From: Lactiplantibacillus paraplantarum
GTDB lineage: Bacteria; Bacillota; Bacilli; Lactobacillales; Lactobacillaceae
Length of the DNA: 64,000 bases
Direction of reading: 5' to 3'
Assembly: GCF_003641145.1 (NCBI RefSeq)
Contig: NZ_CP032745.1
Coordinates: 1-64,000, forward strand
Translations under genes and position numbers: made by a program
The notes under the pieces: generated by a model
Database searches by the model: none
Told to the model about the DNA's origin: nothing
What the model saw: only the letters and a program-made list of their open reading frames with translations
In this document: in pieces, positions 13,083 to 53,504 of the stretch
Layout: each line of letters starts with the position of its first letter
How positions within the stretch are numbered: the first letter of the stretch is position 1

Positions 13083-13991
13083 ATGATGAAAAAACTAACT
13101 ACCGGGTGGCGGTATTTAAAAGAACATAGCCGGCTACGCCGGTTTTTTATTATCGGACTTTACCTGGTTTTAACCGGTGGGTTAATTATTAATTATGGCC
13201 TGTTAAATCGCCAAACGGCTAAGAATGATGATACGCCGTTGAACAGTTATCAGAGCTTCAGTGGTGACAACAGCGCACAAGGTGTCAAGCTAGTCCAACG
13301 CCAGTATAGCCCGACCCAACAACGCCTGATTGCGACGTTTGAAATGCAGGCGTCAACGGACCCCACCACGGAAATTCTGTCGCAATATTTACATTTTGAG
13401 TTAGCGACAGTGGTGCCACAAAAACTAAAAATGGTCGTGATTCCAGTCACCGAAAACAAGTATGTCGTGATGGTTGATCATTTAAATCAGAACTTTGAAG
13501 CGATTCGGTTCCGGTTGATTAATGCCACGCCTAAGACAGATCAAACGAGCTCGTCAGCGCCACAAGCGGACTTTATTGTGACTAATCAGGCGAAAATTAG
13601 ACGGGCCCAGGTTTCGGCTTTATCGCCAAAAGCCTTTGCCAGCCAGACCATTAATGATGAAATTTCAGCGCGAAACACCAGCATTAAGCGGCAACAAAAC
13701 AAAATCAAACTGGCCAAGACGGCCATTAGTGCGGACCACGATAAGATCCAAACGAAGCGAACGAATCGTAAGTATGAAGTCGCTAGTCAACAGACCCAAA
13801 CGGACAATGATATTGAAACTTTAACTGGTGACATCGAACAAAACCAACAAAATATAACGGGTGCGAAGCACCGTATTAGCACGTTAAAAGCGGAACAAGC
13901 TTTACTTAAAAAGAAACAAACCGCGATAAGGAACGGTACTTTTAAACTCGCTAAGGTCACTAAAAGTACCCAAATAACGCACAAAAACTAA
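13083..13991 (+). CDS. Membrane-anchored coiled-coil protein of the transfer region
   Basis: A 302-residue protein with one membrane helix (about residues 20-42), an external globular domain (about 60-165; LRFFIIGL through FEAIRFRLINA) and a long charged coiled coil (about 195-285). AAAGGAG precedes ATGATG at 13083/13086. It follows the thioredoxin gene by 18 bases and is the last gene before the oriT region. It may be a structural or surface-exclusion-like component. I do not recognise a family. Confidence 0.6.
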   Translation: MMKKLTTGWRYLKEHSRLRRFFIIGLYLVLTGGLIINYGLLNRQTAKNDDTPLNSYQSFSGDNSAQGVKLVQRQYSPTQQRLIATFEMQASTDPTTEILSQYLHFELATVVPQKLKMVVIPVTENKYVVMVDHLNQNFEAIRFRLINATPKTDQTSSSAPQADFIVTNQAKIRRAQVSALSPKAFASQTINDEISARNTSIKRQQNKIKLAKTAISADHDKIQTKRTNRKYEVASQQTQTDNDIETLTGDIEQNQQNITGAKHRISTLKAEQALLKKKQTAIRNGTFKLAKVTKSTQITHKN

Positions 13992-17722: not shown

Positions 17723-18358
17723 ATGCAGCTGGTGGTCAAAGTAGGGGGCTGGTTGGGATTAATCCTAATTGAACAATGGGCCACCGGGGTGTGCTTAACG
17801 AGGCTGCAAGCTAGGTCCGGGGGCGCCACCATTTTCTTACTTGGTAGTGGCACACTGGTGTTAATGGTTTTGGCGTTAGGCCTGGGTTATGGTAGTCGTC
17901 AGGCCTGGTGGCGCCCCATTGATCATTGGCGACCGGTTCTAATTAATGGTGGCTGGGCTTTAGTTAGTCTGTTGGGGCTTAGCCTTATTATGATGACCAG
18001 TATGCACCGTGGTGGGCAGGATACTACCGCTAATCAACAAGTTTTAACCGACTGGTTGATTAGTTTGCGCGGGTGGCGTCAAGTTTGGTTGATCGGTCAA
18101 TTGGTCATTATTGCGCCGCTGATGGAGGAATTGTTGTTTCGAGGCTTATTTTGTCGCTGGTTTTTGGGGAACCATCAAAGCTGGCAAGCCATTGTTAGTG
18201 CCGGGGCTTTTGCGAGCGTTCATGAAATGCGGCTCAGTCTAAGTTGGTTACTGTATTTTGGGGCTGGTTTGATCTTAGCTTGCTTATACCAGCGGCAACA
18301 CGACTTGCGCCTTAATTTAGTGGTGCATAGTTTATATAATGGCTTGAGTTTGATTTAG
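17723..18358 (+). CDS. CPBP family intramembrane metalloprotease
   Basis: A 211-residue polytopic membrane protein with the CPBP/Abi signature: EELLFRGLF near residue 137 and the second motif FASVHEMRLS near 165, then a third conserved His in VVHSLYNGL near the end. Such proteins act as membrane proteases or immunity factors, often near bacteriocin or signalling genes. Here it follows the relaxase directly (GGGGGCGG ribosome site inside the relaxase end). ATG 17723 is chosen over the longer frame. It could process a membrane component of the transfer system, but this is a guess. Confidence 0.82.
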   Translation: MQLVVKVGGWLGLILIEQWATGVCLTRLQARSGGATIFLLGSGTLVLMVLALGLGYGSRQAWWRPIDHWRPVLINGGWALVSLLGLSLIMMTSMHRGGQDTTANQQVLTDWLISLRGWRQVWLIGQLVIIAPLMEELLFRGLFCRWFLGNHQSWQAIVSAGAFASVHEMRLSLSWLLYFGAGLILACLYQRQHDLRLNLVVHSLYNGLSLI

Positions 18359-18370
18359 TTCCAGGGTGGG

Positions 18371-18413
18371 GTTGGGCTAGACTAGGGTGTTATTTAAATC
18401 CTAGCCGTCCCGT
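18371..18413. repeat. 43-bp structured element, copy 2
   Basis: Matches 2007-2049 at 36 of 43 positions. In this copy GGCTAG and CTAGCC form a perfect 6-bp stem inside a GGG/CCC outer stem. It lies just after the CPBP gene, upstream of the toxin promoter region. Confidence 0.55.
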
Positions 18414-18478
18414 AGACCACAAATAAAGTCAGATAGACATTATGAACAAGCAATTAAACAATGGATAAATTAGCTAAA

Positions 18479-18533
18479 ATGCACGCTGTGAATACCGTAG
18501 TATCGGTAGTTACAGCGTGCATTATGTTATACT
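18479..18533 (+). promoter_or_regulatory. Nested inverted repeat and -10 element before the type I toxin RNA
   Basis: ATGCACGCTGT (18479-18489) and ACAGCGTGCAT (18512-18522) are perfect inverted repeats, with an inner TACCG/CGGTA pair. A TATACT -10 element follows at 18528-18533, so the right arm overlaps the -35 region. This is the arrangement of an operator over the toxin mRNA promoter. Confidence 0.5.
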
Positions 18534-18587
18534 ATGCTAGTAGAGAAGTTAAGGCGGTGGCTATTTCCAGTATTGGAGGTGGTGCTT

Positions 18588-18596
18588 ATGGTGTAA
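18588..18596 (+). CDS. Two-codon leader ORF in the toxin mRNA
   Basis: GGAGG at 18575-18579 stands eight bases before ATG GTG TAA (18588-18596), a minimal reading frame of two codons. It probably serves as a ribosome standby or stalling site in the toxin leader and does not make a product. Whether it is used is unknown. Confidence 0.35.
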   Translation: MV

Positions 18597-18638
18597 ACCT
18601 AATAAGCCAACCCAAATTCCAGGAAAGGAGTAGCCCAA

Positions 18639-18764
18639 GTGTCCGTGTCGGACGCTTTACAATTAATGCTGGCTTTCGGTACCTTTATCGTAGCCTTAAT
18701 CGCATTAATTGTTGAGCTGATTAAAAGTCAGCAAAAAATAGCCGCCTTAGCTCTGGCAAGCTAG
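18639..18764 (+). CDS. Holin-like type I toxin
   Basis: A 41-residue peptide starting at GTG 18639 after AAAGGAG: SVSDALQLMLAFGTFIVALI then a second hydrophobic run ending in LIKSQQK. This is the pattern of the small 'putative holin-like toxin' peptides of lactobacilli and enterococci, single membrane helices that disrupt the membrane when overproduced. The 5' leader segment 18550-18566 is complementary (14 pairs with a 3-base bulge) to 18736-18749 near the end of the frame. Such end-to-end pairing blocks translation in Fst and AapA-type toxin mRNAs. It probably stabilises the plasmid. Confidence 0.75.
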   Translation: MSVSDALQLMLAFGTFIVALIALIVELIKSQQKIAALALAS

Positions 18765-18850
18765 CGGCTATCTAGTCTAAAATTTGTCACCGTCTTAAAC
18801 GGCTCTACACGGGAAGTCTTGTGCAATCAGGACTTCCTTTTTCTATAATT
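18733..18850 (-). ncRNA. Antitoxin RNA antisense to the toxin mRNA 3' part
   Basis: On the minus strand the hairpin 18738-18771 (ATAGCCGC/GCGGCTAT) is followed by six T, a terminator inside the toxin 3' end. Upstream on the same strand are a small hairpin CCGTTTAAGACGG, a 5' hairpin GGAAGTC/GACTTCC (near 18812-18837) and an AT-rich TAGAAT -10 candidate near 18855. This fits a convergent antitoxin RNA overlapping the toxin mRNA. The 5' hairpin could alternatively be the plus-strand terminator of the toxin mRNA, since T5 follows it on the plus strand. Confidence 0.55.
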
Positions 18851-18869
18851 TATTCTACCACAAAAATTA

Positions 18870-19045
18870 AAAAACCGCTCGTAATGAGGATTGCGAACGG
18901 TTCGAGGAAACTATGTGATGAAAATTGATTAGGTTATATACCGCAATGCCAAAACAGGAGAAGCTTTGGCACTCTTAAAGTAACGTATATTGGAAAATTT
19001 AGCAATCAATATACAACCGGTTACTCGCAATAAATATTTCAGTGG
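18870..19045 (-). ncRNA. Tandem small RNA, unit B
   Basis: Minus-strand unit starting near GAAATATTTATTGCGAGTAA (about 19041) and ending with the terminator CCGTTCGCAAT...ATTACGAGCGG plus six T (18870-18901). It shares its start, its TAGT-TTCCTCG segment and its terminator design with unit A. The 5' segment ATTGCGAGT can pair with the terminator's left arm. No ORF is seen. See findings. Confidence 0.5.
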
Positions 19046-19066
19046 CTAAAAGGTAGTTCTAAGAAC

Positions 19067-19235
19067 AAAAAGCCACTCATAATGGGGGTTATGAGTGGTC
19101 GGAGTAGACTATATAGTACATAGGACTAATCTTTGTATCAAAAGGATTACCTTGGAGAAGTAATATTAATACGACTGTTACTTTAGTACAGTGCAAGCCG
19201 TAATGCAAGCATCGTTACTCATAACAAATATTTCT
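19067..19235 (-). ncRNA. Tandem small RNA, unit A
   Basis: Minus-strand unit starting near GAAATATTTGTTATGAGTAA (about 19233) and ending with CCACTCATAAC...TTATGAGTGG plus T5 (19067-19098). The 5' segment GTTATGAGT is perfectly complementary to ACTCATAAC of the terminator, so the RNA can adopt two exclusive folds. A possible promoter TTGTCA-17-ATTAAT lies upstream on the minus strand, overlapping the start of topB at about 19287-19312. Confidence 0.5.
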
Positions 19236-19306
19236 TGAGGGTGAGTTTAATGCTACGGCCGCCAAGCTGGTAAGCTGGGACTAAATTAATGTTAGGAGTG
19301 CAAATT

Positions 19307-21469
19307 ATGACAACGGTAATTTTAGCAGAAAAACCCAGCCAGGCCCGGGCATATGTGGCGGCCTTTCAAAAGAGTCAGAAAAAGTCGGGTTACTATGAGG
19401 TTAGTGATCCAGTGTTACCCAATGATACGCTAGTGACACACGCGTTGGGTCATTTGGTCGAACTCGTCCCGCCAGAAAAATATGATGCGAAGTATCGCAA
19501 TTGGGCTTTGGCCAACTTACCAATATTTCCAACCACCTATCAATTCGAAGTTATTGCGGACAAGCAAAAGCAGTTTCAGGTGGTTAAGACGTTATTAAAT
19601 CGGGCCGATACGATTATTGTGGCTGGTGATAATGGTCGTGAGGGTGAAAATATTGCTTGGTCGATCATGAAACAAGCTCAAATTGATGTCGAACACAAAA
19701 CGATGCAACGGTTGTGGATCAACAGTTTGGAAAAAGAAGCGATTATCGCGGGCTTTCGCAATTTGAAAGATGGGTGGCAATTTTATCCGAATTACCAAGA
19801 AGCCCAGACCAGACAGATCAGTGATTGGCTCGTTGGCATGAATGCTAGTCCGCTGTACACCTTGTTATTACGGCAACATGGGTTGTCGGGGGTGTACGCC
19901 ATTGGCCGCGTCCAAACGCCAACGCTCTATATGGTCTATCAAAGAGATCAACTGATCAAAAACTTTAAACCGGAGCCCTACTTGGAGCTAAATGCTGAAA
20001 TTTTAGCCAATCAGCAAAAATTCGAGGCAAAATTAGACCCCTATCAGCGCTTTAAAGACGAAAAAGGATTAACGATATTCATGCAGGCTAAAAGCGTTCA
20101 GCGGGGCCCGCAGACAGCTTTAATAAAAGATGTCCAAAACATCGTCAAAAAGACCCCTAGTCCACGGCTGTTTTCACTATCTAGTCTACAAAGTGCGGTT
20201 AACCAACGGTTTCATGCGAGTGCGAGTGAAACCCTAGCGGCGGTGCAGGCCTTATATGAAGCAAAGTGGTTAACTTATCCGCGCACTGATAGTGAGTACC
20301 TTACGCAGCAAGAGTTTGACTATTTGGCGGCGAACCTGGATCAGTACCAAGAGTTATTGCCTGAAAAAATGGCTTTACCACAGACCACGCCGCAAAAGCG
20401 CTATGTCAATGATCAGAAAGTGACGGAACACCCCGCGATTATTATGACGAAAGTGGTGCCTAGTTCAACTCAATTGGCTAAATTACCCGTCTTACAACGC
20501 CAGGTCTATGACTTGGTGTTAAAAACCACGTTAGCCATGTTTGCGGGGCCTTATGAGTATACAGAAACGACCATTATAACGCAGGTCGGACAGGCACTGT
20601 TTAAATCAGTGGGCAAAGTCCCAATCAATCCTGGTTGGCGACGCCTATTCAAGACAAAATCAGTTGAGCAGGGGAAAGACACACTACCCGTGGTCACGCC
20701 TGGTCAAACGGTACAAGCTGTCTTAACCACCCCGACGAAACAGACCACCCCACCGAAGCCGTTTACCGAAGGGACCTTAATTACAGCCATGAAAACGGCC
20801 GGCAAGACTTTGGACGCAGACGAAGCGGCGGTGTTAAAAGCTGTCGAGGGAATTGGCACCGAAGCTACGCGTGCCAATGTGTTAGAAACGCTGAAGCGTC
20901 GGCACTATTTAGTTACGAATAAAAATGAGTTACATGTTAGTGGCACTGGTGTGACACTGTGCCAAGCGGTGGCATTAGAACCATTGTTAACGAGTCCGTC
21001 GATGACGGCTAAATGGGAACTAGCTTTAAAAGAAATTGGTGAGAAAAAGCGCACGCCCGAAAACTTTTTAGGCCAGATTAAGTTGTTAATCCAAAAATTG
21101 CTTAAAGAAGTTCCCGAGCAGTTTGCCCAGAATGCGGACTTACAGACGCAATTGGTGGCCCAACAACAGGTAGAACAAAAACAGCAAGCGCAGGCCGCTG
21201 TTGGGGTTTGTCCAATATGTAAAACGGGTGAGATTTCAGATCGTGGCAAGTTTTATGGGTGTTCAAATTACAAAAATGGCTGTAAGTTTACGTTGCCCAA
21301 ACAATGGAGTGGCAAAAAATTGCCAATAAGTGCCATCAAGCAACTGATCAAGACTGCTGAAACGGCCCAACTCAAAGGTTTTAAGAGTAAGAAAACGGGA
21401 AAAACATTTAGTGCCAAGTTGAAGTTAGAAGCTGGCAAACTAAAATTTGATTTTGATAAGTACAAGTAG
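19307..21469 (+). CDS. topB: DNA topoisomerase III
   Basis: A 720-residue type IA topoisomerase, usual for conjugative Gram-positive plasmids (TraI/TrsI in staphylococci). It relaxes or decatenates plasmid DNA during replication and transfer. The Toprim domain starts ILAEKPSQARAYVAAF with the acidic motif AGDNGREGENIAW near residue 106; the active-site Tyr is in WLTYPRTDSEYL near 325. The C-terminus has a zinc ribbon (CPIC ... GCSNYKNGC, about 637-665). ATG 19307 is preferred to 19289 because AGGAG sits nine bases before it. The gene is intact. Confidence 0.93.
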   Translation: MTTVILAEKPSQARAYVAAFQKSQKKSGYYEVSDPVLPNDTLVTHALGHLVELVPPEKYDAKYRNWALANLPIFPTTYQFEVIADKQKQFQVVKTLLNRADTIIVAGDNGREGENIAWSIMKQAQIDVEHKTMQRLWINSLEKEAIIAGFRNLKDGWQFYPNYQEAQTRQISDWLVGMNASPLYTLLLRQHGLSGVYAIGRVQTPTLYMVYQRDQLIKNFKPEPYLELNAEILANQQKFEAKLDPYQRFKDEKGLTIFMQAKSVQRGPQTALIKDVQNIVKKTPSPRLFSLSSLQSAVNQRFHASASETLAAVQALYEAKWLTYPRTDSEYLTQQEFDYLAANLDQYQELLPEKMALPQTTPQKRYVNDQKVTEHPAIIMTKVVPSSTQLAKLPVLQRQVYDLVLKTTLAMFAGPYEYTETTIITQVGQALFKSVGKVPINPGWRRLFKTKSVEQGKDTLPVVTPGQTVQAVLTTPTKQTTPPKPFTEGTLITAMKTAGKTLDADEAAVLKAVEGIGTEATRANVLETLKRRHYLVTNKNELHVSGTGVTLCQAVALEPLLTSPSMTAKWELALKEIGEKKRTPENFLGQIKLLIQKLLKEVPEQFAQNADLQTQLVAQQQVEQKQQAQAAVGVCPICKTGEISDRGKFYGCSNYKNGCKFTLPKQWSGKKLPISAIKQLIKTAETAQLKGFKSKKTGKTFSAKLKLEAGKLKFDFDKYK

Positions 21470-43054: not shown

Positions 43055-43783
43055 ATGTTTAAACGTAAAGAACAGAATATAACGACTACGGCCCCAATTA
43101 ATCTCACGACGATTAATGAACCAATGTCAGTGATTACAGAACAAATTAAAACGATTCGAACGAACATCAACTTTGCGGCTACGGATCATCAGTTACGAAC
43201 TTTAATGGTAACTTCCGCAATGCTGGGAGAAGGAAAATCAACGGTGAGCGGGAATTTAGCTGTTGAATATGCTAAAGAAGGGATGCAAGTCCTATTAGTT
43301 GATGCCGATTTACGTCGGCCAACAATCCATAAGACATTTGGCCTTAAAAACCATAAAGGATTAAGTTCATGGTTAGCCAACCAAATGGATGATGTGAATG
43401 ATGCAATTCATCCCGTCATTGGCAATCTATTTGTGATGACGAGTGGTCCTAAGCCACCTAATCCTGCCGAACTATTGGGTAGTAATAAAATGACCGAATT
43501 TTTGACTTCGGCAACGCGTAAATTAGATTTGGTGATCGTTGACGCACCACCAATTTTGCCAGTGACTGACTCACAGTTGCTCGCTAATAAAGTTGATGGC
43601 ACGGTCTTAGTTGTTCGCCAAGGTGTAGCCCAAAAGGCAGCGGTTCGTGATGCTGTTAATTCATTAAAGAAATCGCAAGCTAACATTCTGGGTGCGATTT
43701 TGAATGATGTTCGTGATGGTTCGCACCACGGTTATTACGGCTATAACAATGGTTATGGGTACTACAGTAATGAAGATAAATAA
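43055..43783 (+). CDS. cpsD: Tyrosine autokinase CpsD/Wze
   Basis: A 242-residue BY-kinase. Walker A SAMLGEGKST near residue 55, Walker A' LLVDADLRRP near 83 and Walker B LDLVIVDAPP near 161 are all present. The tail carries a tyrosine cluster (HGYYGYNNGYGYYS) for autophosphorylation. Works with CpsC and is dephosphorylated by CpsB, the next gene, with which it overlaps by 14 bases. Confidence 0.92.
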   Translation: MFKRKEQNITTTAPINLTTINEPMSVITEQIKTIRTNINFAATDHQLRTLMVTSAMLGEGKSTVSGNLAVEYAKEGMQVLLVDADLRRPTIHKTFGLKNHKGLSSWLANQMDDVNDAIHPVIGNLFVMTSGPKPPNPAELLGSNKMTEFLTSATRKLDLVIVDAPPILPVTDSQLLANKVDGTVLVVRQGVAQKAAVRDAVNSLKKSQANILGAILNDVRDGSHHGYYGYNNGYGYYSNEDK

Positions 43784-44543
43784 TTTAGTTGACTTACATT
43801 GCCATATTTTACCGGCTATTGATGATGGCTCGCCTTCGTTAGAGGAGTCGTTAGAATTGGCGCGGCAGGCGGTTGCTGATGGAATTCGTTATATTTTAGC
43901 GACACCGCATCATATGGATCGACATTATCTTAATCATGCATATGATGTTGAAACGGCTGTTAAAGCGTTTCAGGCAGAGTTAGATAAAAATGATATTCCA
44001 TTAACCGTTTTTCCTGGTCAAGAGGTACATCTGAACGGTCAGCTAATGGAAAATATTGATGATTTGTTGGGTATAGATACTAGTAGAAACTATTTACTGT
44101 TGGAATTACCTCATGAAATGGTTCCAAGTTATCTTGATGAAATGATTTTTCAATTGTCATGCGAAGGTATCACGCCAGTTATTGCACATCCTGAACGTAA
44201 TGCTCAAATTATTGCGGAGCCTCAACGGTTATACAAGCTAGTTGAGCAGGGGGTCCTGGCACAGGTTACGGCCACGAGTTTAGTTGGCACTTTTGGGGAA
44301 CAAGTCCAACGAACCGCAAAAGAATTTGTTAAGTGCGGTTTGGTGCAGGTGGTCGCGTCGGATGCACATACGCTGAAAAATCGGGGCTTTGCTATGACCA
44401 AGGCCTACGAAGTATTAAATGAAATGGATTCGAAATATCCTGAACGTTTTGCAACCAACGCTCGGGATTTGTTGAATGGTGAACAGATCGATATTGGTAA
44501 GATTGAGATACCACGAAAACAGCGAAAGCACTGGTTGTTCTAA
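43770..44543 (+). CDS. cpsB: PHP-type tyrosine phosphatase CpsB, copy 1
   Basis: A 257-residue metal-dependent phosphatase with PHP motifs VDLHCHILPAIDDGS, ATPHHMDRHY, VIAHPERN and VASDAHTL. It dephosphorylates CpsD. ATG 43770 (MKINNLVDLHCH) inside the cpsD end is the natural start; the frame is open further upstream only within cpsD. A diverged second copy is at 48038. Confidence 0.9.
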   Translation: MKINNLVDLHCHILPAIDDGSPSLEESLELARQAVADGIRYILATPHHMDRHYLNHAYDVETAVKAFQAELDKNDIPLTVFPGQEVHLNGQLMENIDDLLGIDTSRNYLLLELPHEMVPSYLDEMIFQLSCEGITPVIAHPERNAQIIAEPQRLYKLVEQGVLAQVTATSLVGTFGEQVQRTAKEFVKCGLVQVVASDAHTLKNRGFAMTKAYEVLNEMDSKYPERFATNARDLLNGEQIDIGKIEIPRKQRKHWLF

Positions 44544-44560
44544 AAGAAGGAGCGAGTTAA

Positions 44561-45505
44561 ATGAAAGCATTGGTAACTGGAGGAGCGGGATTTATTGGTT
44601 CCCACCTTGTGGACCACTTGGTTGCAGAAGGATTGGACGTTGTCGTAGTTGATAACTTGTCCATGGGGGACTTACATAATGTTAAGCATCAGGATGAAGT
44701 CACTATTTATGTTGAAGATGTCCGCAACGAAAAGTTTATGCAACAGCTTTTACAAGAAGAACGGCCCGATTATATTTACTTTCTAGCAGCTGTTGCTAGT
44801 GTTGCCGATTCGATTGAACGTCCAGCTGAAACCCATTCAGTGAATCAAACTGCAGTATTCAATATGTTGGAATATATTCGGAAGACTAATTTACCAATTA
44901 AACAGTTCCTATTTACGTCTTCGGCAGCGGTTTATGGTAATCTGCCAGAATTACCTAAGAAAGAAGACTCACGAGTTGATCCATTATCACCATATGCGAT
45001 TGATAAGTATGCTACGGAACGTTTTGTACTAGCATATGGTGAACTTTATGATTTACCAACTGTCTGTGTGCGTTTCTTCAATGTTTATGGCCCTGGTCAA
45101 AATCCCAGTTCGCCATATTCAGGGGTGCTGTCGATCTTGACTGATTGTCTCAATAACAAGAAGCCATTTACCTTGTACGGAGACGGGAGTCAGACACGAG
45201 ATTTTGTGTATGTTGAAGATGTTATCCAAGCATTATGGTTGATAACGAAAAGTGATACTGAGCATGAAGTCTTTAATATCGCCAATGGTAATGAAGCCAG
45301 CTTAAATGCCATTATTGAAACATATGAGAAGGTTGCAGGAACGTCATTGCAGATTAAAAAGGCGCCAGGGCGTGAAGGGGAAGTAAAACGTTCAGTGGCC
45401 AACATCGGTAAGTTAATTAAGTTAGGGTACACGACGAAGTGGTCGTTAGAAGCGGGCTTGAGCAAATATTGGGAAGGGACGCAACGACGTGAAGCAAGTC
45501 GATGA
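44561..45505 (+). CDS. NAD-dependent sugar-nucleotide epimerase, copy 1
   Basis: A 314-residue short-chain dehydrogenase of the UDP-glucose 4-epimerase type. The NAD-binding motif is GGAGFIGSH at the N-terminus; the catalytic pair is SSAAVYG and YAIDKYATE (Tyr and Lys near residues 147-151). It probably makes UDP-galactose, UDP-GalNAc or a related donor for the repeat unit. AAGGAG precedes the ATG. Its DNA is almost identical to the second copy at 48829-49776. Confidence 0.88.
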   Translation: MKALVTGGAGFIGSHLVDHLVAEGLDVVVVDNLSMGDLHNVKHQDEVTIYVEDVRNEKFMQQLLQEERPDYIYFLAAVASVADSIERPAETHSVNQTAVFNMLEYIRKTNLPIKQFLFTSSAAVYGNLPELPKKEDSRVDPLSPYAIDKYATERFVLAYGELYDLPTVCVRFFNVYGPGQNPSSPYSGVLSILTDCLNNKKPFTLYGDGSQTRDFVYVEDVIQALWLITKSDTEHEVFNIANGNEASLNAIIETYEKVAGTSLQIKKAPGREGEVKRSVANIGKLIKLGYTTKWSLEAGLSKYWEGTQRREASR

Positions 45506-46160
45506 AATAGTTAAAGTTGGTCATGTACAACCACAAATGGATTATCGCTTTCCAGCTATGATTGGAAAGCCAGTTACGGGCTGGAAACTGTTTGTAAAAC
45601 GGATTTTTGATCTTACTGTTGGGTTAATCGGGACGGTTTTGAGTGCGCCAATTGTCCTAGTGTTTGCCATTCTTGTAAAGCTGACTTCTAAAGGGCCAGC
45701 ATTTTATAAGCAAGAGCGGGTTGGCCTCATGGGGAAGAGTTTTAATGTAATTAAGTTGCGGTCGATGTATCAGGATGCTGAAGCACGAACCGGTGCGGTT
45801 TGGGCCCAAAAGAATGATCCGCGAATTACGCCCATTGGTCGGTTTATGCGAAAAACTCGAGTAGATGAATTACCACAATTTTGGAATGTATTAAAAGGTG
45901 ATATGAGTTTGGTAGGACCGCGACCAGAACGGCCAGTACTGACAGAGGAATTTAGTCGGCAATTTCCAGATTTTCCTAGAAGGTTACGTATTATTCCTGG
46001 TATTACAGGGTATGCACAAATCAATGGTGGCTACGATATTACGCCAGATGAGAAATGTAAGTTGGATAATTACTATATTGAACATTTTTCGGTTTGGTTC
46101 GATATTAAGATGTTATTAGGAACAGTCAAAATTGTGTTTACTGGAGATGGTGCACGTTGA
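45489..46160 (+). CDS. Priming sugar-1-phosphate transferase, copy 1
   Basis: A 223-residue polyprenyl-phosphate hexose-1-phosphate transferase that starts repeat-unit assembly on undecaprenyl phosphate. One N-terminal membrane hairpin (about residues 36-60, VKRIFDLTVGLIGTVLS) is followed by the catalytic domain with KLRSM, TRVDELPQFWNVLKGD, LVGPRPERP and PGITGYAQINGGY. GTG 45489 overlaps the epimerase end. This is the short, PglC-like form without extra N-terminal helices. Confidence 0.9.
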   Translation: MKQVDEIVKVGHVQPQMDYRFPAMIGKPVTGWKLFVKRIFDLTVGLIGTVLSAPIVLVFAILVKLTSKGPAFYKQERVGLMGKSFNVIKLRSMYQDAEARTGAVWAQKNDPRITPIGRFMRKTRVDELPQFWNVLKGDMSLVGPRPERPVLTEEFSRQFPDFPRRLRIIPGITGYAQINGGYDITPDEKCKLDNYYIEHFSVWFDIKMLLGTVKIVFTGDGAR

Positions 46161-47664: not shown

Positions 47665-48051
47665 ATGATGCAATCCATCCCGTTAATTGGTAACTTATTT
47701 GTGATGACGAGTGGTCCTAAGCCACCGAATCCCGCGGAACTGTTAGGAAGCAACAAAATGACAGAATTCTTAACTTCGGCAACTCGCAAGTTAGATCTAG
47801 TAATCGTTGATGCACCACCAATTTTGCCGGTGGCTGACTCACAATTGCTCGCTAATAAAGTTGATGGCACGGTCTTAATTGTTCGCCAAGGTGTAGCCCA
47901 AAAAGCAGCGGTTCGTGATGCTGTTAATTCGTTGAAAAAATCTCAAGCCAATATTCTGGGCGCAGTACTGAATGATGTTCGCGATGGTTCGCACCATGGC
48001 TATTACGGCTATAGTAGCGGTTATGGGTACTACAGCGATGCAGATAAATAA
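47641..48051 (+). pseudogene. 3' fragment of a second cpsD
   Basis: From about 47641 the DNA matches cpsD from about 43374 onward. The first 107 or so codons with both Walker A motifs are missing, and one extra base (CCCGTTAATTGG versus CCCGTCATTGG) shifts the frame. The reading frame 47665-48051 keeps Walker B and the tyrosine-rich tail, so it cannot be an active kinase, though it could be a phosphorylation target. Confidence 0.85.
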
Positions 48052-48811
48052 TTTAGTTGACTTACATTGCCACATCTTACCAGCCATTGATGATGGTTCG
48101 CCTTCCTTAGAAGCGTCATTGGAATTAGCACGGCAGGCGGTTGCTGACGGGATTCGCTATATTTTAGCGACACCACATCATATGGATCGGCACTATCTCA
48201 ATCATGCCGGTGATGTGGCAGCGGCGGTTAAGGCATTTCAAGCAGAGCTAGATGCAAATGATATTCCATTAACTATTTTTCCTGGTCAGGAGGTACATCT
48301 GAATGGTCAGTTGATGGAAAATATTGATGATTTGTTGGGCATAGATACCAGTAGACACTATTTATTGTTAGAACTTCCTCACGAGATGGTACCAAGTTAC
48401 TTGGATGAGATGATTTTTCAATTGTCTTGTGAGGGGATTACCCCGGTCATTGCACACCCTGAACGGAATGCTCAAATTATTGCCGAACCGCAGCGATTAT
48501 ACAAGTTGGCCGAGGATGGGGTCTTGGCACAGGTTACGGCCACGAGTTTAGTTGGCACTTTTGGGGACCACGTCCAGCGAACTGCAAAAGAATTCGTTAA
48601 GTGTGGTTTGGTTCAAGTGGTCGCATCAGATGCGCATACGCTGAAAAATCGGGGCTTTGCTATGACTAAGACCTATCAAGTCTTAAATGATATGGATTCT
48701 CAATATCCTGAACGTTTTGCAGCCAATGCTCGGGATTTGTTGAATGGTGAACAGATTGATATTGGCGGAATTGAAATACCACGAAAACAGCGAAAGCACT
48801 GGTTGTTCTAG
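48038..48811 (+). CDS. cpsB: PHP-type tyrosine phosphatase CpsB, copy 2
   Basis: A 257-residue protein with the same four PHP metal-binding motifs as copy 1 (VDLHCHILPAIDDGS, TPHHMDRHY, AHPERN, ASDAHTL). It differs at scattered positions, for example MQINN instead of MKINN at the start. ATG 48038 lies inside the cpsD fragment end, the same overlap as in module 1. Confidence 0.9.
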   Translation: MQINNLVDLHCHILPAIDDGSPSLEASLELARQAVADGIRYILATPHHMDRHYLNHAGDVAAAVKAFQAELDANDIPLTIFPGQEVHLNGQLMENIDDLLGIDTSRHYLLLELPHEMVPSYLDEMIFQLSCEGITPVIAHPERNAQIIAEPQRLYKLAEDGVLAQVTATSLVGTFGDHVQRTAKEFVKCGLVQVVASDAHTLKNRGFAMTKTYQVLNDMDSQYPERFAANARDLLNGEQIDIGGIEIPRKQRKHWLF

Positions 48812-48828
48812 AAGAAGGAGCGAGTTAA

Positions 48829-49776
48829 ATGAAAGCATTGGTAACTGGAGGAGCGGGATTTATTGGTTCCCACCTTGTGGACCACTTGGTTGCAGAAGGA
48901 TTGGACGTTGTCGTAGTTGATAACTTGTCCATGGGGGACCTACATAATGTTAAGCATCAGGATGAAGTCACCATTTATGTCGAAGATGTTCGCAACGAAA
49001 AATTCATGCAACAATTGTTACAGGAAGAACAACCTGATTATATTTACTTTTTAGCAGCTGTTGCTAGTGTTGCCGATTCGATTGAACGTCCAGCTGAAAC
49101 CCATTCAGTGAATCAAACTGCAGTATTCAATATGTTGGAATATATTCGGAAGACTAATTTACCAATTAAACAGTTCCTATTTACGTCTTCGGCAGCGGTT
49201 TATGGTAATCTGCCAGAATTACCTAAGAAAGAAGACTCACGAGTTGATCCATTATCACCATATGCGATTGATAAGTATGCTACGGAACGTTTTGTACTAG
49301 CATATGGTGAACTTTATGATTTACCAACTGTCTGTGTGCGTTTCTTCAATGTTTATGGCCCTGGTCAAAATCCCAGTTCGCCATATTCAGGGGTGCTGTC
49401 GATCTTGACTGATTGTCTCAATAACAAGAAGCCATTTACCTTGTACGGAGACGGGAGTCAGACACGAGATTTTGTGTATGTTGAAGATGTTATCCAAGCA
49501 TTATGGTTGATAACGAAAAGTGATACTGAGCATGAAGTCTTTAATATCGCCAATGGTAATGAAGCCAGCTTAAATGCCATTATTGAAACATATGAGAAGG
49601 TTGCAGGAACGTCATTGCAGATTAAAAAGGCGCCAGGGCGTGAAGGGGAAGTAAAACGTTCAGTGGCCAACATCGGTAAGTTAATTAAGTTAGGGTACAC
49701 GACGAAGTGGTCGTTAGAAGCGGGTTTGAGCAAATATTGGGAAGGGGCACAACGACGTGACGCAAGTCGAAATTAA
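48829..49776 (+). CDS. NAD-dependent sugar-nucleotide epimerase, copy 2
   Basis: A 315-residue epimerase with GGAGFIGSH and YAIDKYATE motifs. Most of its DNA (about 49059-49720) looks identical to 44791-45452, whereas the flanking genes differ at many synonymous sites. This points to recent gene conversion or recombination between the two modules. Confidence 0.88.
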   Translation: MKALVTGGAGFIGSHLVDHLVAEGLDVVVVDNLSMGDLHNVKHQDEVTIYVEDVRNEKFMQQLLQEEQPDYIYFLAAVASVADSIERPAETHSVNQTAVFNMLEYIRKTNLPIKQFLFTSSAAVYGNLPELPKKEDSRVDPLSPYAIDKYATERFVLAYGELYDLPTVCVRFFNVYGPGQNPSSPYSGVLSILTDCLNNKKPFTLYGDGSQTRDFVYVEDVIQALWLITKSDTEHEVFNIANGNEASLNAIIETYEKVAGTSLQIKKAPGREGEVKRSVANIGKLIKLGYTTKWSLEAGLSKYWEGAQRRDASRN

Positions 49777-50434
49777 TGAAACAGTTAAAGTTGGTCATGT
49801 ACAACCACAAACGGATTATCGTTTTCCAACTATGATTGGAAAGCCAGTTACAGGCTGGAAACTATTTGTAAAACGGATTTTTGACCTTACTGTTGGGTTA
49901 ATCGGGACGGTTTTGAGTGCGCCAATTGTCCTAGTGTTTGCCATTCTTGTAAAACTGACTTCTAAAGGACCAGCATTTTATAAGCAAGAACGGGTTGGCC
50001 TAATGGGAAAGAGTTTCAATGTAATTAAGTTGCGGTCGATGTATAAGGATGCTGAAGCACGAACCGGTGCGGTTTGGGCCCAAAAGAATGATCCGCGAAT
50101 TACGCCCATTGGTCGGTTTATGCGTAAAACTCGAGTAGACGAACTACCGCAATTTTGGAATGTGTTAAAAGGTGATTTGAGTTTGGTAGGACCGCGACCA
50201 GAACGGCCAGTGCTGACAGAGGAGTTTAGTCGGCAATTTTCAGATTTCCCTAAACGGTTACGTATTATTCCTGGTATTACAGGGTATGCACAAATTAATG
50301 GTGGCTACGATATTACGCCAGATGAGAAATGTAAGTTGGATAATTACTATATTGAACATTTTTCGGTTTGGTTCGATATTAAGATGTTATTAGGAACAGT
50401 CAAAATTGTGTTTACTGGAGATGGTGCACGTTGA
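49757..50434 (+). CDS. Priming sugar-1-phosphate transferase, copy 2
   Basis: A 225-residue polyprenyl-phosphate sugar-1-phosphate transferase, near-identical to copy 1 with the same membrane hairpin and LVGPRPERP and PGITGYAQINGGY motifs. GTG 49757 overlaps the epimerase end. Two priming enzymes of the same type in one locus are redundant and follow from the module duplication. Confidence 0.9.
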   Translation: MTQVEINETVKVGHVQPQTDYRFPTMIGKPVTGWKLFVKRIFDLTVGLIGTVLSAPIVLVFAILVKLTSKGPAFYKQERVGLMGKSFNVIKLRSMYKDAEARTGAVWAQKNDPRITPIGRFMRKTRVDELPQFWNVLKGDLSLVGPRPERPVLTEEFSRQFSDFPKRLRIIPGITGYAQINGGYDITPDEKCKLDNYYIEHFSVWFDIKMLLGTVKIVFTGDGAR

Positions 50435-52509: not shown

Positions 52510-53504
52510 CTAATAGAGTTTCAATTGTGGTTCCTGTATATAATGTAGAAAGTTATATTGAGAATTGTATTCAAAGTATTAGGCAACAGAGCTATAAAAA
52601 TCTTGAAATAATTTTAGTTAATGATGGTTCCAGTGATCGTTCACAATTGATATGTGAGAGATACTGTAAATTGGATAATCGGGTAACTGTTATTAACAAG
52701 CAAAATGGCGGTCTCTCGAGTGCTCGAAATGCTGGACTTGATATTGCAACAGGTGATTATATAGCTTTTATTGATGGTGATGACTGGATTGATCACGATT
52801 ATATTGGTTCAATGGTAGATGTTTTAGAGAATACAAAGTCAGATATTTCAGTTTTTCATATGAAAAAAGAAGTATGCTCGAATATGTATGATAGTACAGA
52901 AAAAGATAGTTATGAGTGGCGTCATTTTAAACGAACGAAAGCATTGCAAGAACTTTTTACTAATAACAATATTGGCTATTCTGCTTGTAACAAGCTATAC
53001 AGAATTAGTTTGTTTAATAACATTCGATACCCTTATGGTAAGCTAATGGAAGATAAGGCAACAACGTATAAGGTTATTGATCAGGCTAGAAATGGAATTG
53101 TTGTATCAAGTTGTCCCAAATATCATTATTTTATGCGTTCAACAAGTATTATGAAGAGCAACTTTAATGCTAAAAAATTTGATTCATTTGAAATTCATGA
53201 CCAAATATTACACTACATGTCATATTGTCACCCTGAATTAATTCCCTTAGTTCGAGAAAGATATGTTTATGAAGCAATTAGAATGCAGATGGCTTTGATT
53301 GAGTCAAATAATCGAGATAAAGGTAATTATCGAAAATGTCAGAAAATTATTAGATTATATGGTAATAGCGTAAAACATGATTCAAATTTATCGTTAAGAT
53401 ACCGTGGACTTGTAATGTTAATCATGCTTATGCCGGGTGGACTTTATATATTATCAAAATTTAGGATGGTGAGATTGATGTTTAGAAGGTTAGAGCTAAG
53501 TTGA
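52506..53504 (+). CDS. GT2-family glycosyltransferase
   Basis: A 332-residue GT-A transferase of the CpsI/EpsJ type: VSIVVPVYNVESYIENCIQS at the start, VNDGSSDRS near residue 38 and AFIDGDDWID (DxD) near 90, GGLSSARNAG near 68. C-terminal third is helical. Coupled to both neighbours by 4-base overlaps. Confidence 0.9.
   Translation: MTNRVSIVVPVYNVESYIENCIQSIRQQSYKNLEIILVNDGSSDRSQLICERYCKLDNRVTVINKQNGGLSSARNAGLDIATGDYIAFIDGDDWIDHDYIGSMVDVLENTKSDISVFHMKKEVCSNMYDSTEKDSYEWRHFKRTKALQELFTNNNIGYSACNKLYRISLFNNIRYPYGKLMEDKATTYKVIDQARNGIVVSSCPKYHYFMRSTSIMKSNFNAKKFDSFEIHDQILHYMSYCHPELIPLVRERYVYEAIRMQMALIESNNRDKGNYRKCQKIIRLYGNSVKHDSNLSLRYRGLVMLIMLMPGGLYILSKFRMVRLMFRRLELS

Follow-up and report, generated by a model that had tools for sequence, protein, structure and literature searches.

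Tandem paralogous minus-strand units on Lactiplantibacillus plasmids as putative small RNA genes

What is encoded by two similar stretches of minus-strand sequence that lie in tandem between a topoisomerase gene and a toxin gene on a Lactiplantibacillus plasmid, and does the start of each control its own end? The two stretches, here called units A and B, were found in the first 64,000 nucleotides of Lactiplantibacillus paraplantarum contig NZ_CP032745.1 (the window), which is a piece of a plasmid-like contig and closely matches L. plantarum plasmids around the units. A preliminary description had proposed two successive minus-strand RNAs in which a 5' segment and a terminator arm change in step, either as a riboswitch-like or antitermination device or as a small RNA family with a self-controlled end. 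The locus holds the following features.

18639 to 18764, plus strand: gene for a Hol_Tox holin-like toxin (PF16935, 58.2 bits), annotated as a putative holin-like toxin in L014, an annotated relative
18769 to 18852, minus strand: RatA-type antitoxin RNA, next after B (RF01776, 64 bits versus a gathering score of 49)
18861 to 19040, minus strand: unit B, putative small RNA of about 173 to 180 nt (R2 match, 223.6 bits)
19066 to 19234, minus strand: unit A, putative small RNA of about 169 nt (R1 match, 204.5 bits)
19307 to 21469, plus strand: topB, type IA DNA topoisomerase (PF01131, 325 bits), annotated as topB in L014

The units sit between topB on one side and, on the other, genes for Hol_Tox, a CAAX protease, and a MobL relaxase. 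All four of these genes are on the plus strand, and both units are on the minus strand, on which the downstream order is A, B, and then the RatA-type antitoxin. The RatA-type RNA was downstream of B in 6/6 further copies scanned, close in four and about 160 nt off in two. Within 18518 to 18852, the Hol_Tox gene is flanked by an rli28 match on the plus strand and the RatA match on the minus strand, making up a type I toxin-antitoxin module that adjoins B. In L014, two holin-like toxin genes lie between topB and the CAAX protease gene.

Two successive minus-strand units with a common 5' block were present where the preliminary description had placed them. The shared block is a 21-nt direct repeat, at 19020 to 19040 and 19214 to 19234, that is 86% identical. 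A covariance model built from B (R2) detected A at 19059 to 19234 with 42.3 bits (E 3e-8), and a model built from A (R1) detected B with 37.1 bits (E 4.7e-7). This mutual recognition demonstrates that A and B are paralogs. Both units folded better than dinucleotide shuffles, which reached as low an energy in 3/200 cases for A and 0/200 for B. As consensus folds, the opposite strand was the better one for A (-30.7 versus -25.6), and for B the opposite strand gave -29.6 versus -32.3. Between plasmids, the bodies of the units differed by 0.05 to 0.08, about as much as topB does at its fastest-changing codon position (0.077), which was taken to be the third; the sequence constraint on both bodies is modest. 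One plasmid record (L005, NZ_CP013751.1) carries a second A and B pair, at 75462 to 75840, besides that at 13328 to 13706.

The stem-loops of the two units are the following.

19146 to 19164, minus strand: A middle hairpin with a C-rich loop (CUCC, or CCCC in some copies; motif unpaired with probability 0.99)
19073 to 19098, minus strand: A terminator-like hairpin with loop CCCCCA, then CTTTTTG (from the terminator scan; mean pairwise difference of the segment 0.003)
18946 to 18972, minus strand: B middle hairpin with a loop holding CUUCUCC (motif unpaired with probability 1.0)
18874 to 18901, minus strand: B terminator-like hairpin with loop CCUC, then TTTTTT (from folding; with compensatory changes)

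As had been proposed, both units end in a terminator-like hairpin: the terminator scan listed that of A and not that of B, which was predicted by folding, and a T run follows each hairpin on the minus strand only. A stem-loop followed by a U run, as in intrinsic terminators, is thus found in A and in B. Single-sequence folds contained the terminator hairpin in 23/24 cases, the exception being the B copy of L012. The terminator segment of A (19066 to 19098) is near-invariant between plasmids, at 0.003, and that of B (18868 to 18904) is among the most variable parts, at 0.145.

Comparison between plasmids drew on 44 plasmid records that hold both units. Twenty of these were fetched and 19 were compared with the window; in one record B is split by an insertion. 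In the B terminator stem, a C-G pair was replaced by A-U in L009 and L012 and a U-G pair by U-A or C-G in L003, L005, and L009; one pair was broken in L002 and L006 and another in L012. The B middle hairpin had a G-C pair replaced by A-U in L007 and a broken pair in L007, L009, and L012. In A, a C-G pair of the middle hairpin became U-A in L002 and L006, with the loop changing alongside from CUCC to CCCC, and in L003 and L004 the middle hairpin did not fold by itself. The A terminator stem was invariant on 12 rows, with one arm change in L105. Over 12 rows, 97.5% of the cells of the B structure were paired (1/500 shuffles as high), and its covariation score of 0.082, compared with 0.062 ± 0.006, was reached by 0/500 shuffles, a comparison to be read with the caution that related rows can beat shuffles and that compensatory counts are few. 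Two pairs of this structure, in three cells, had changes on both sides (equaled by 35/500 and 1/500 shuffles, respectively), and the structure exceeded its slid versions on the same 12 rows; the number of pair types was not above shuffles (140/500 reached it). In L010, an IS982 transposase gene (1820 to 2700) lies inside B, with A intact and the remainder of B beyond the insertion.

The pairing at the center of the preliminary description involves four short elements.

19217 to 19225, minus strand: A 5' segment GTTATGAGT, which pairs with the A arm at 8 or 9 of 9 positions in 19/19 testable copies
19088 to 19096, minus strand: A terminator 5' arm ACTCATAAC, the last base of which the terminator scan counts as loop
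19023 to 19031, minus strand: B 5' segment ATTGCGAGT, with alleles CTTGCAAGT, GTTGCGAGT, and ATTACGAGT in other copies
18890 to 18898, minus strand: B terminator 5' arm GTTCGCAAT, which varies independently of the B 5' segment

The claim that the 5' segment of each unit is complementary to its own terminator arm was correct for the window: GTTATGAGT and ACTCATAAC form 9/9 pairs in A, and ATTGCGAGT and GTTCGCAAT form 9/9 pairs in B (7 Watson-Crick and 2 G-U). When the first 40 nt were shuffled by mononucleotide, this complementarity was equaled in 12/2000 cases for A and 27/2000 for B; with the whole body shuffled, it was equaled in 2/500 and 10/500 cases, respectively. Because A and B are paralogs, the tests on the two units are not independent. 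The further claim, that three positions had changed in step with pairing kept, held between the two units of the present plasmid but not within B across plasmids. The B 5' segment occurred as ATTGCGAGT, CTTGCAAGT, GTTGCGAGT, and ATTACGAGT and the B arm as GTTCGCAAT, GTTCGTAAT, GTTCTTAAT, GCTCGCAAT, and GTTCGCAGT; both main segment alleles were found with each of the three main arm alleles, which amounts to free combination. With wobbles counted, the 20 B copies kept 9 pairs in 7, 8 in 2, 7 in 10, and 6 in 1. In two of the seven with 9 pairs (L009 and L010), both segment and arm had changed, but not within one and the same pair. Among 12 distinct rows, changes on both sides were seen at 0/9 pairs of the B helix, 15/108 cells were unpaired, and 500/500 shuffles reached its covariation score. 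Segment and arm of B thus vary independently, the very observation that the preliminary description had named as contradicting its claim, and the complementarity in B is probably incidental. In A, all 19 copies with both sides kept 8 or 9 pairs (9 in 15, one of these with a wobble, and 8 in 4), and eight of the nine pairs never varied on 12 rows. Since the pairing in A hardly varies, A neither supports nor refutes covariation of segment and arm. The case illustrates that two paralogs can give a semblance of covariation that disappears once orthologs are compared.

Folding of the alternative helix differed between complete and truncated transcripts. For full-length RNAs, the helix between 5' segment and arm had a probability of ≤0.032 in 36/36 copies (17 of A and 19 of B, with the L010 copy of B, which includes an insertion, among them). 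In transcripts cut just before the 3' arm of the terminator, A favored this helix in 17/17 copies, with a probability of 0.83 to 0.99; the corresponding probability in B was 0.001 to 0.95 across copies, so that the helix was favored in some of them only. The preference of every cut A copy makes a kinetic role in A thinkable, and there the 5' segment may delay folding of the terminator.

Known families offered no counterpart. At gathering score, the Rfam covariance search matched only the neighbors RatA and rli28 in the window and nothing over A or B, in agreement with the preliminary remark that the units could not be matched to a known RNA family. The RF01776 match to RatA (18769 to 18852) falls outside both units, neither of which matches this family by covariance. 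RsaOG (RF01775) aligned below threshold with the 3' half of B (18867 to 18981, minus strand, E 0.11 to 0.68), yet it scored 22.2 bits versus a gathering score of 50, and none of six homologous plasmid loci matched it at E ≤2. IR_84 was far below the cutoff at relaxed Rfam thresholds. The Rfam search of 18400 to 19300 gave 10 matches at E ≤5, none of them LhrC, for which the library presumably holds a family. No paper on these RNAs was found among literature titles and the beginnings of abstracts.

The distribution of A and B is narrow in the collections searched. All 44 plasmid records with the units in a DNA search of these collections were from Lactiplantibacillus (44/44), and phages gave two 25-base chance matches only. 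Among 21 genomes of the genus, the only match (1/21) was the plasmid's own genome, as was that of R1 over 350 genomes of the family (1/350). R2 matched 6/350, that is, the same genome and five others at E 0.001 to 0.05 per genome; these five are no more than chance for 350 genomes, their alignments are partial, and R1 matched none of them. The units appear to belong to a mobilizable plasmid family of L. plantarum.

Both units carry short C/U-rich motifs at three kinds of site: the loop of the middle hairpin, the loop of the terminator, and the stretch before the terminator, which is located as follows.

19097 to 19108, minus strand: A stretch UCUACUCCGACC before the terminator (motif unpaired with probability 0.60; one change in 13 rows)
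18902 to 18913, minus strand: B stretch UAGUUUCCUCGA before the terminator (motifs unpaired with probability 0.87 to 0.93)

These sites are mostly unpaired, and the motifs CUCC, UCCC, CCCC, UUCC, and CCUC had unpaired probabilities of 0.60 to 1.0 in A and B. The four-letter C/U motifs were absent from the opposite strand of both units. The summed unpaired probability of the motifs was reached by 17/200 dinucleotide shuffles for A and 2/200 for B, an enrichment that is strong for B and weak, and not significant, for A alone. The loop of the B terminator read CCTC or TTCC in 20/20 copies. One report describes a three-site layout for Listeria LhrC and its binding to the Shine-Dalgarno region of lapB, as well as a C-rich motif with which RNAIII, RsaE, SprD, and FsrA of low-GC Gram-positive bacteria bind mRNAs, an interaction assumed to block the Shine-Dalgarno sequence (PMC4132741). 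A and B resemble LhrC1 to LhrC5, the multicopy small RNAs of Listeria monocytogenes, in having several homologous copies (at least two, from the cross-matches of R1 and R2) and a C/U three-site layout. Unlike LhrC as described there, they are about 170 nt long and plasmid-borne, and in place of UCCC at every site they have CUCC, CCCC, UUCC, or CCUC. They share a C-rich motif with RNAIII, RsaE, SprD, and FsrA, as these are described in the same report, but match no Rfam family at gathering score.

The reading that we prefer, and to which we give about an even chance, is that A and B are tandem paralogous minus-strand genes for putative trans-acting small RNAs, with terminators of their own, that block Shine-Dalgarno sites. 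Each unit would be transcribed from the minus strand, from a putative start site, and closed by its own intrinsic terminator; the C/U-rich, mostly unpaired sites would then pair in trans with G-rich Shine-Dalgarno regions and, by analogy with LhrC, block translation of the target mRNAs. Because the three-site C/U layout is shared with LhrC, we infer that A and B could act likewise. The possibility of a small RNA family, which the preliminary description had also raised, is favored by the paralogy of the units, by the few compensatory changes in the B terminator stem and the middle hairpins, and by the lack of an Rfam match; the restriction of unpaired C/U motifs to the minus strand is a further observation. 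If expressed, these would be small RNAs that a plasmid family of a food bacterium brings into its host, where they could act on messages of the host or of the plasmid. No convincing promoter was found for A or B: the best minus-strand scores, 9.5 and 9.1, compare with a top score of 8.6 ± 1.5 over 30 mononucleotide shuffles, and 3 sites were found versus 3.1 expected. Of the two best sites, one is inside topB and one inside A, and neither is just upstream of a unit start. Target scoring by hybrid energy in the window singled out no gene. At 52909, 11 nt of the A terminator recur; this stretch was set aside, as it is within an open reading frame and by eye has no matching second arm.

Four other explanations were weighed against this one. 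It is rather unlikely that A and B are self-controlled, riboswitch-like terminators, in which capture of the terminator arm by the 5' segment, while transcription proceeds, lets each RNA switch between stopping and reading through, first into the following unit and in the end into the RatA antitoxin. The nine-pair complementarity of both units of this plasmid exceeds shuffles, and in A it is kept at 8 or 9 pairs in every testable copy and is favored in every cut transcript scored. However, only 7/20 B copies keep all nine pairs, no B pair has changed on both sides, and the helix is negligible in all full-length copies, so a riboswitch-like or antitermination device with covarying, mutually exclusive helices did not stand up in B, and A is nearly invariant. 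Downstream of the units, no gene for a riboswitch to control was found: the list of open reading frames has no minus-strand frame of at least 60 amino acids within 17853 to 18868, and the RatA RNA lies there instead. What survives of the self-controlled end is therefore the near-invariant pairing in A, where such control is conceivable; in B, with segment and arm varying independently, it fails. A combination of the two ideas, to which we attach quite low confidence, is that tandem LhrC-like paralogs offer redundant Shine-Dalgarno-blocking sites while the 5' segment of A, and no longer that of B on many plasmids, times its own terminator and so tunes read-through into B and the antitoxin. The units might instead be DNA-level elements rather than RNAs, such as a site for single-strand priming or protein binding near the mobilization genes. 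Their position between relaxase and topoisomerase genes, a 21-bp direct repeat that could be a binding site, the similar consensus fold energies of the reverse strand, and the want of a clear promoter would fit, but T runs after both hairpins and unpaired C/U motifs on one and the same strand, together with compensatory changes in stems, argue for RNA and make this improbable.

The remaining two explanations look to the neighboring genes. Like A and B, the RatA/TxpA-type antitoxin (RF01776) is a small plasmid RNA on the minus strand, and it adjoins B, as does the Hol_Tox gene; the B loop has a hybrid energy of -23.5 kcal/mol with the toxin start region. One reading would be that the units are related to, or are what is left of, type I antitoxin RNAs directed against Hol_Tox-type toxins, among them the adjacent one. 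This is quite improbable: the RatA stretch was not matched on its own strand by R1 or R2 up to E 10, neither A nor B is complementary to the rest of the window over more than 12 nt, and the toxin start ranked only 15/64 in the target scoring. Cis antisense control of the topB leader, with the units antisense to read-through from the mob genes into topB, is very unlikely, even though 14/20 fetched records have topB annotated on the opposite strand, directly upstream of A. In L011, the sequence from about 27 nt upstream of A has been replaced by unrelated sequence with open reading frames that are transposase-like by the look of their translations and with no topB annotated in that stretch, and A is intact, which argues against a strict tie of A to topB. 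The topB start region bound both RNAs more weakly than the median in the target scoring, four topB loci of other genera had no such units upstream by eye, and R1 found no matching RNA at six other loci with topB relatives (best E 0.28). Elsewhere in the window, 43704 to 46160 and 47972 to 50434 are two closely similar polysaccharide-type gene blocks, with what we take, by the look of the translations, to be phosphatase, epimerase, and sugar transferase genes.
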